A stretch of 64,000 bases of DNA from Phycisphaerales bacterium (GTDB lineage Bacteria; Planctomycetota; Phycisphaerae; Phycisphaerales; SM1A02), in NCBI GenBank assembly GCA_030748575.1, contig JASMLR010000001.1, positions 197,900 through 261,899 of the forward strand, read 5' to 3'. How positions within the stretch are numbered: the stretch's first letter is position 1; each line of letters starts with the position of its first letter. The notes below the pieces were generated by a model that saw only the letters and a program-made list of their open reading frames with translations, was not told where the DNA came from and ran no database searches. Shown here in pieces: positions 54,021-54,520 of the stretch. The position numbers were made by a program, and so were the translations under genes.

Positions 54021-54063
54021 GGTCCTGTGTTCCTTCCTGTCCACGCTGCTGCGTGGAGGTCTG

Positions 54064-54291
54064 TCATCTGGTGGTCGTCGGAGGTCCGATCTCAATCCAC
54101 ACGATTCGATCGGCGTCGACGACGTACTCGGTCGCCCCGTCCGTCAGTTTGATCAGCCCGTCATCCTCGACGGGCACAAGCAGGGCGCTTCTGACCAGGC
54201 AGTCTCCGGGCGATCCGAAACGAATCCGCACGTCGCGAAGTCCGTTGAGTTCGGCAAGGGCCGTTCTGACCTGATCGTGCTGCATGCCCAT
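54064..54291 (-). CDS. Small chaperonin-operon protein B (75 aa, unknown function)
   Basis: 75 aa. The ATG follows the stop of the previous gene by one base (TGACATG), with GGAG just upstream, so it is translationally coupled. It is followed by groEL after 43 bases. The layout is a short helix ([13 protein letters not shown]) and then beta strands ([45 protein letters not shown]). No family is recognised. It resembles the preceding 75-aa gene in pattern and length: both have a G-[IL]-x-[IL]-K-[TL]-x-x-[AG]-[NT]... strand followed by VDA-x-x-[IV]. This could be a small SH3- or OB-like barrel, and the pair may come from a duplication. Function unknown; the position suggests a role tied to the chaperonin. 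Confidence 0.7.
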
Positions 54292-54292
54292 G

Positions 54293-54520
54293 TCACTCCA
54301 TGTCTACTCGGGCTTGCCACATGGCCGACACGTGGCTCGCGTCGACCCAGATGGTGTTGGCCTTGGTCTTGATGCGGATGCCGTGGGAACTGTGCAGCGC
54401 CTCCACGTCGGTGACGTTGCGCAGTTCGATCGGCTCGTGGTCACCGTTGAGGACCAGGTCCAATTCGGCCGACGTCCCGATCATCTCGGTGAGCACGCTC
54501 AGAATGGGTCCGCGTTCCAT
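54293..54520 (-). CDS. Small chaperonin-operon protein A (75 aa, unknown function)
   Basis: 75 aa, starting eight bases after the groES stop and ending one base before the start of protein B. Layout is a helix (ILSVLTEMIGTSA), then beta strands ELDLVLNGD, EPIELRNVTDVEAL, GIRIKTKANTIWVDASHVSAMW. No known family recognised. The segment GIRIKTKANTIWVDASHV aligns with [19 protein letters not shown] of protein B, and both are exactly 75 aa, which supports common origin. No strong ribosome binding site is visible, so translation probably depends on coupling to groES. Not a secreted protein. Confidence 0.7.
   Translation of the reverse strand: MERGPILSVLTEMIGTSAELDLVLNGDHEPIELRNVTDVEALHSSHGIRIKTKANTIWVDASHVSAMWQARVDME

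Follow-up and report, generated by a model that had tools for sequence, protein, structure and literature searches.

Two conserved families of predicted small beta-barrel proteins encoded between groES and groEL in the Phycisphaerales

The main groES and groEL genes of a Phycisphaerales bacterium are separated by two small genes, A and B, that are under purifying selection, keep their place across several families of the order and are predicted to encode small beta-barrels. These proteins are tentatively interpreted as protein-binding, optional accessory factors of the main chaperonin, a reading to which we assign a probability of roughly 0.4. GroES/GroEL is usually viewed as a fixed two-component machine, and in the canonical operon the two genes are normally adjacent. 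Two conserved, unannotated families found only between groES and groEL and in a single order, A and B are direct candidates for a role as further parts of the chaperonin or in a novel form of feedback control.

Results

The operon is located in the window (the whole 64,000-nucleotide stretch of DNA that was analysed) and its features are collected in Table 1. On the minus strand the gene order is receiver-domain gene, groES, A, B and groEL, and the intergenic gaps of 8 nt (groES-A), 1 nt (A-B) and 43 nt (B-groEL) confirm the coordinates of the original prediction, which described two genes of 75 codons in the same orientation between groES and groEL. The tight spacing of A and B within the genus fits coupled translation. 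The GroES and GroEL of this operon are ordinary by Pfam, as in the canonical arrangement, from which the locus differs by the one or two extra genes between them and by the receiver-domain gene upstream. Besides the groES of this operon, the source genome (2.38 Mb, 97% complete) carries two others (L001 and L003; contigs C33 and C66), one inside a groEL-groES-groEL cluster and the other divergent (29% identity). A and B are absent from the neighbourhoods of both, and the second groES loci examined (groEL-groES-groEL), have neither gene.

Table 1. Features of the main groESL operon and its surroundings (positions in the window)
Feature	Position	Strand	Evidence
Receiver-domain (response-regulator-like) protein, 176 aa	54816-55346	-	Pfam Response_reg E 5.7e-6, below gathering score; conserved position
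groES, main co-chaperonin, 96 aa	54529-54819	-	Pfam Cpn10 E 2.6e-32
Gene A, 75 aa, predicted small beta-barrel, first gene after groES	54293-54520	-	AF2 model, purifying selection
Gene B, 75 aa, predicted small beta-barrel, directly upstream of groEL	54064-54291	-	AF2 model, purifying selection
groEL, main chaperonin, 541 aa	52395-54020	-	Pfam Cpn60_TCP1 E 1.2e-71
Hairpin in B-groEL spacer, just before groEL ribosome-binding site	54036-54059	-	Seen also at loci lacking A and B

A and B are real genes under purifying selection. Within the genus dN ranged from 0.02 to 0.29 with dS near saturation in most pairs, and for A and B alike most comparisons gave a dN/dS of ~0.06-0.2, computed at these near-saturated values. 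Homologues with 40-80% identity hold the same operon place across genera and families. The codon conservation in related genomes whose absence would have counted against the original prediction is thus present (dN/dS ~0.1), and as a general explanation non-coding ORFs are refuted by it. It is accordingly extremely improbable that the ORFs do not code for protein or are simply in decay, even though B is frame-disrupted in one genome of the source genus (L007) and missing from four others. The equal length of 75 codons, exact in this genome, is a coincidence there, as homologues of A span 72-94 aa and those of B 67-78 aa.

The linkage to the chaperonin genes expected of an accessory factor was constant. 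Among all loci fetched, 102 of the 103 distinct A or B genes are flanked on the same strand by groES immediately upstream and by groEL immediately downstream, the single exception being cut by a contig end, and with one exception among the genomes listed there is one copy per genome. A pattern scan with B, covering the genomes of 85,462 species of bacteria and archaea and reaching fairly close relatives, returned 47 loci; groES lies upstream in all 47 and groEL downstream in all but one (contig end). By title nearly all of these are Planctomycetota or Phycisphaerales MAGs. The few under other titles (Limnohabitans, Hyphomonas, Chitinophaga and Vicinamibacteraceae) are read as mislabelled bins, as is supported for L097 (titled Vicinamibacteraceae) by coordinates identical to those of G047, a relative in the Phycisphaerales. 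The unusual insertion noted in one genome is therefore conserved well beyond it.

Among the near relatives, A occurs in 27 and B in 31 of 61 genomes. Across 400 genomes sampled from the order, B was present in 183, from families f1, f2, f3 and f4, and the much narrower A in 60, all from f1, with one additional weak partial match in f6 (E 2.7e-4). In a sample of 392 genomes from the phylum B was found in 14, every one from the Phycisphaerales; neither gene was found outside this order in that sample or, at the sensitivity of the pattern, in the scan of species genomes. Neither A nor B lies between groES and groEL in families f5 and f6, several f1 genera and two genomes of other orders. Incomplete genomes could inflate absence counts; in these cases, however, the groES-groEL interval is intact and short (16-165 nt).

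On a GroEL tree B requires ~13 changes and A ~7, counts taken from a short search in which many forks are weakly supported. Read most simply, this history has B gained once, at the base of f1-f4, A gained later within f1, and numerous losses in place. Conserved yet repeatedly lost, A and B are maintained but dispensable, and their absence from f5, f6 and several f1 genera indicates that neither is a core part of the chaperonin. Association (coevolution) tests of A/B presence over the GroEL tree had no power, as independent supported pairs were too few. The repeated natural losses provide ready comparisons.

Small genes have entered the interval between groES and groEL on more than one occasion, as extra ORFs occur in f4 and in one f2 genome. 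The f4 loci (L048-L051 and L097-L099) contain, between B and groEL, a third conserved ORF of ~81 aa (LHIVSDTTVPHLPFGRLHVQ...) that has no match in Pfam or NCBIfam. One f2 genome (both L059 and L068) has a different small ORF (MTAYEMAAYLDSLPN...IDADEVRYIRHIEEIPS) between groES and B, the last strand of which looks similar; it also matches no Pfam or NCBIfam family.

By our reading, A and B define two new single-domain protein families. Neither had been recognized in the original prediction, and Pfam and NCBIfam contain no family for either. A match of A to ARL2 among PDB sequences (E 0.02) was taken as chance. The suggestion that the two are paralogue-like was not supported by a pairwise profile comparison: the alignment of A 6-65 to B 8-64 had an E of 0.07 and a probability below 1%, and the hhalign score of 12.7 compares with a maximum of 20.7 and a median of 10.7 among 200 decoys (shuffled-column profiles). 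Paralogy is not supported, since sequence homology does not rise above the decoys; the two have the predicted fold alone in common, and the distribution of A is much narrower than that of B. The similar strand that had been pointed out does align in register, from the helix to the last strand, but with a score below the best decoys.

Residues 42-73 of B resemble DUF3107 (PF11305), at 15.6 bits against a gathering score of 27, with a match in 15 of 29 B members (best E 9e-4). At E 0.04 the B profile also reached TB9.4, along with a protein whose deposited name is 'Small RNA-Binding protein'. What B shares with this family (TB9.4/Rv3208A; PDB 7rur, 7rus and 9nip 'SRB') is an alignable C-terminal beta hairpin; the match covers the C-terminal half of B and stays below the gathering cut-off, so that B does not score as a DUF3107 member along the whole domain. 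The helix of DUF3107 is at another place in the chain. In the literature collection searched, nothing relevant was found on genes between groES and groEL, on DUF3107 or on TB9.4.

The proposed plan of a helix followed by beta-strands agrees with the AlphaFold2 (AF2) models, in which each protein has one helix and five strands. The model of B (pLDDT 89.5) places the helix at 5-12 and strands at 20-25, 30-33, 47-50, 55-58 and 63-69; that of A (pLDDT 78), moderately confident and built from ten sequences, has a helix at 5-14 and strands at 19-25, 31-33 with 36-41, 47-52, 56-60 and 65-71. A short helical turn lies between beta4 and beta5 in both. In Foldseek searches of the PDB the first match of A was Listeria Hfq (E 0.10, probability 0.93, TM 0.51) and that of B was Synechocystis Hfq (3hfo; E 0.08, probability 0.97, TM 0.53-0.59); the list for B contained numerous further Hfq chains. 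Held against the Sm fold (helix, beta1-5 and a 3-10 turn before beta5), the models have the expected strand order, with Hfq matches that are marginal (E ~0.1). Marginal Foldseek scores are usual for barrels of 75 residues, and the two separate predictions agree. A and B are thus predicted to be small beta-barrels in the Sm/Hfq strand order. In sequence conservation, beta3 to beta5 are among the top stretches of A (3.4-3.75 bits, mean 3.1), and strand 36-40, beta3 and beta5 among those of B (3.5-3.8 bits, mean 2.75), where beta4 is average.

With Hfq and the bacterial Sm proteins (PF17209), the models of A and B share the N-terminal helix, the five-strand Sm order and the short turn before the last strand. 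The two proteins differ from Hfq in having no profile match, in lacking YKHAIST, in being acidic and in being confined to the groESL operon. At E <= 1, searches with 25 A members and 29 B members brought up neither Hfq nor an LSM family. At the position of the Sm2 motif YKHAIST, A has N-x-IWIDASHVSA and B has YxVDAERVAW. The median pI is 5.0 for A and 5.1 for B, acidic like the GroEL and GroES of the source genome. The Foldseek lists also contain comparable small barrels, among them the YgdR/DUF903 lipoproteins, the Rho inhibitor Rof and Leptospirillum 3na2, from which A and B differ in sequence and setting; to our knowledge none of these is a groESL gene. A search of a viral fold library gave generic small proteins of unknown function only. 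Caution in naming such proteins Hfq before testing is advised by the case of BB0268/FlgV, which had been annotated as Hfq but was subsequently found to be unrelated and not to bind RNA (PMC11607428).

Discussion

Encoded between groES and groEL and nowhere else in the genome, A and B probably serve the chaperonin. Four families retain the arrangement, and the second groES loci examined lack both genes. In the mechanism we propose, A and B would each assemble into a ring or small oligomer, probably through the edges of beta4 and beta5; in Sm proteins these edges pair between subunits to form a ring. The barrels would then act on protein partners, most likely the GroEL and GroES made with them or the clients of these, and would either modulate GroEL/GroES or bring clients to them. 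Oligomerisation, contact with GroEL/GroES and an effect on folding are all inferred. A precedent for an Sm protein that works via a protein partner is Synechocystis Hfq, for which binding to PilB1, the pilus motor, was reported (PMC6755745). Against an accessory role, f5, f6 and several f1 genera do without A and B, the fold matches are marginal (TM 0.5-0.6), and vertical inheritance plus co-regulation could also account for the fixed position. A more specific version, in which an Sm-type hexamer or heptamer docks on the sevenfold ring of GroEL or GroES as an optional, clade-specific third and fourth subunit, is considerably less probable than the accessory role in general.

Two other explanations deserve weight, though each is rather unlikely. 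A and/or B may be Sm-like RNA binders that either autoregulate the groESL transcript or, when induced by stress, take the place of the missing Hfq. The predicted fold is what such a protein would have, no Hfq exceeded the cut-off in the 61 relatives (5 of 14 control genomes were positive) and the source genome gave no Hfq hit; further, the half of B that weakly resembles DUF3107 does so in a family whose solved members include the 'Small RNA-Binding protein'. If correct, these would be Sm-like proteins in a lineage where no Hfq was found. The acidic charge, the absent Sm2 motif and the failure to match Hfq or LSM profiles speak for protein rather than RNA as the partner, and the barrel that the original prediction suggested as binding either one stands with its RNA-binding option weakened. 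Replacement of Hfq was rejected, as the sampled relatives are without Hfq whether or not A and B are present; families f5 and f6 lack all three, which is no replacement pattern. The hairpin before the groEL ribosome-binding site, found in 9 of 9 genomes of the source genus with differing sequence, was rejected as a conserved RNA target since hairpins also occur at loci without A and B and the median z is only -0.2, and scanning for an Rfam element found none. Alternatively, A and B may work in another stress pathway and reside in the groESL operon for co-expression, never touching the chaperonin, which we also regard as doubtful. That they were lost repeatedly while the rest of the operon stayed unchanged is consistent with this, as are the unrelated-looking small ORFs of f4 and the f2 genome, as if the interval accepted co-expressed genes. 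Such genes would be expected to have copies elsewhere, in other stress operons or after groEL, but every copy examined lies between groES and groEL. Of these readings, the optional accessory factor acting on proteins is preferred.

Regulation of the operon may involve its first gene. Scans for a CIRCE element, Rfam families and a sigma-70 promoter found none. The receiver-domain gene, which overlaps the start of groES by 4 nt, keeps its position immediately before the main groES in the Phycisphaerales families checked, whether or not A and B are present; it is missing upstream of groES in two genomes from other orders and at the second groES loci. The receiver-domain protein may be an order-wide regulator of groESL.
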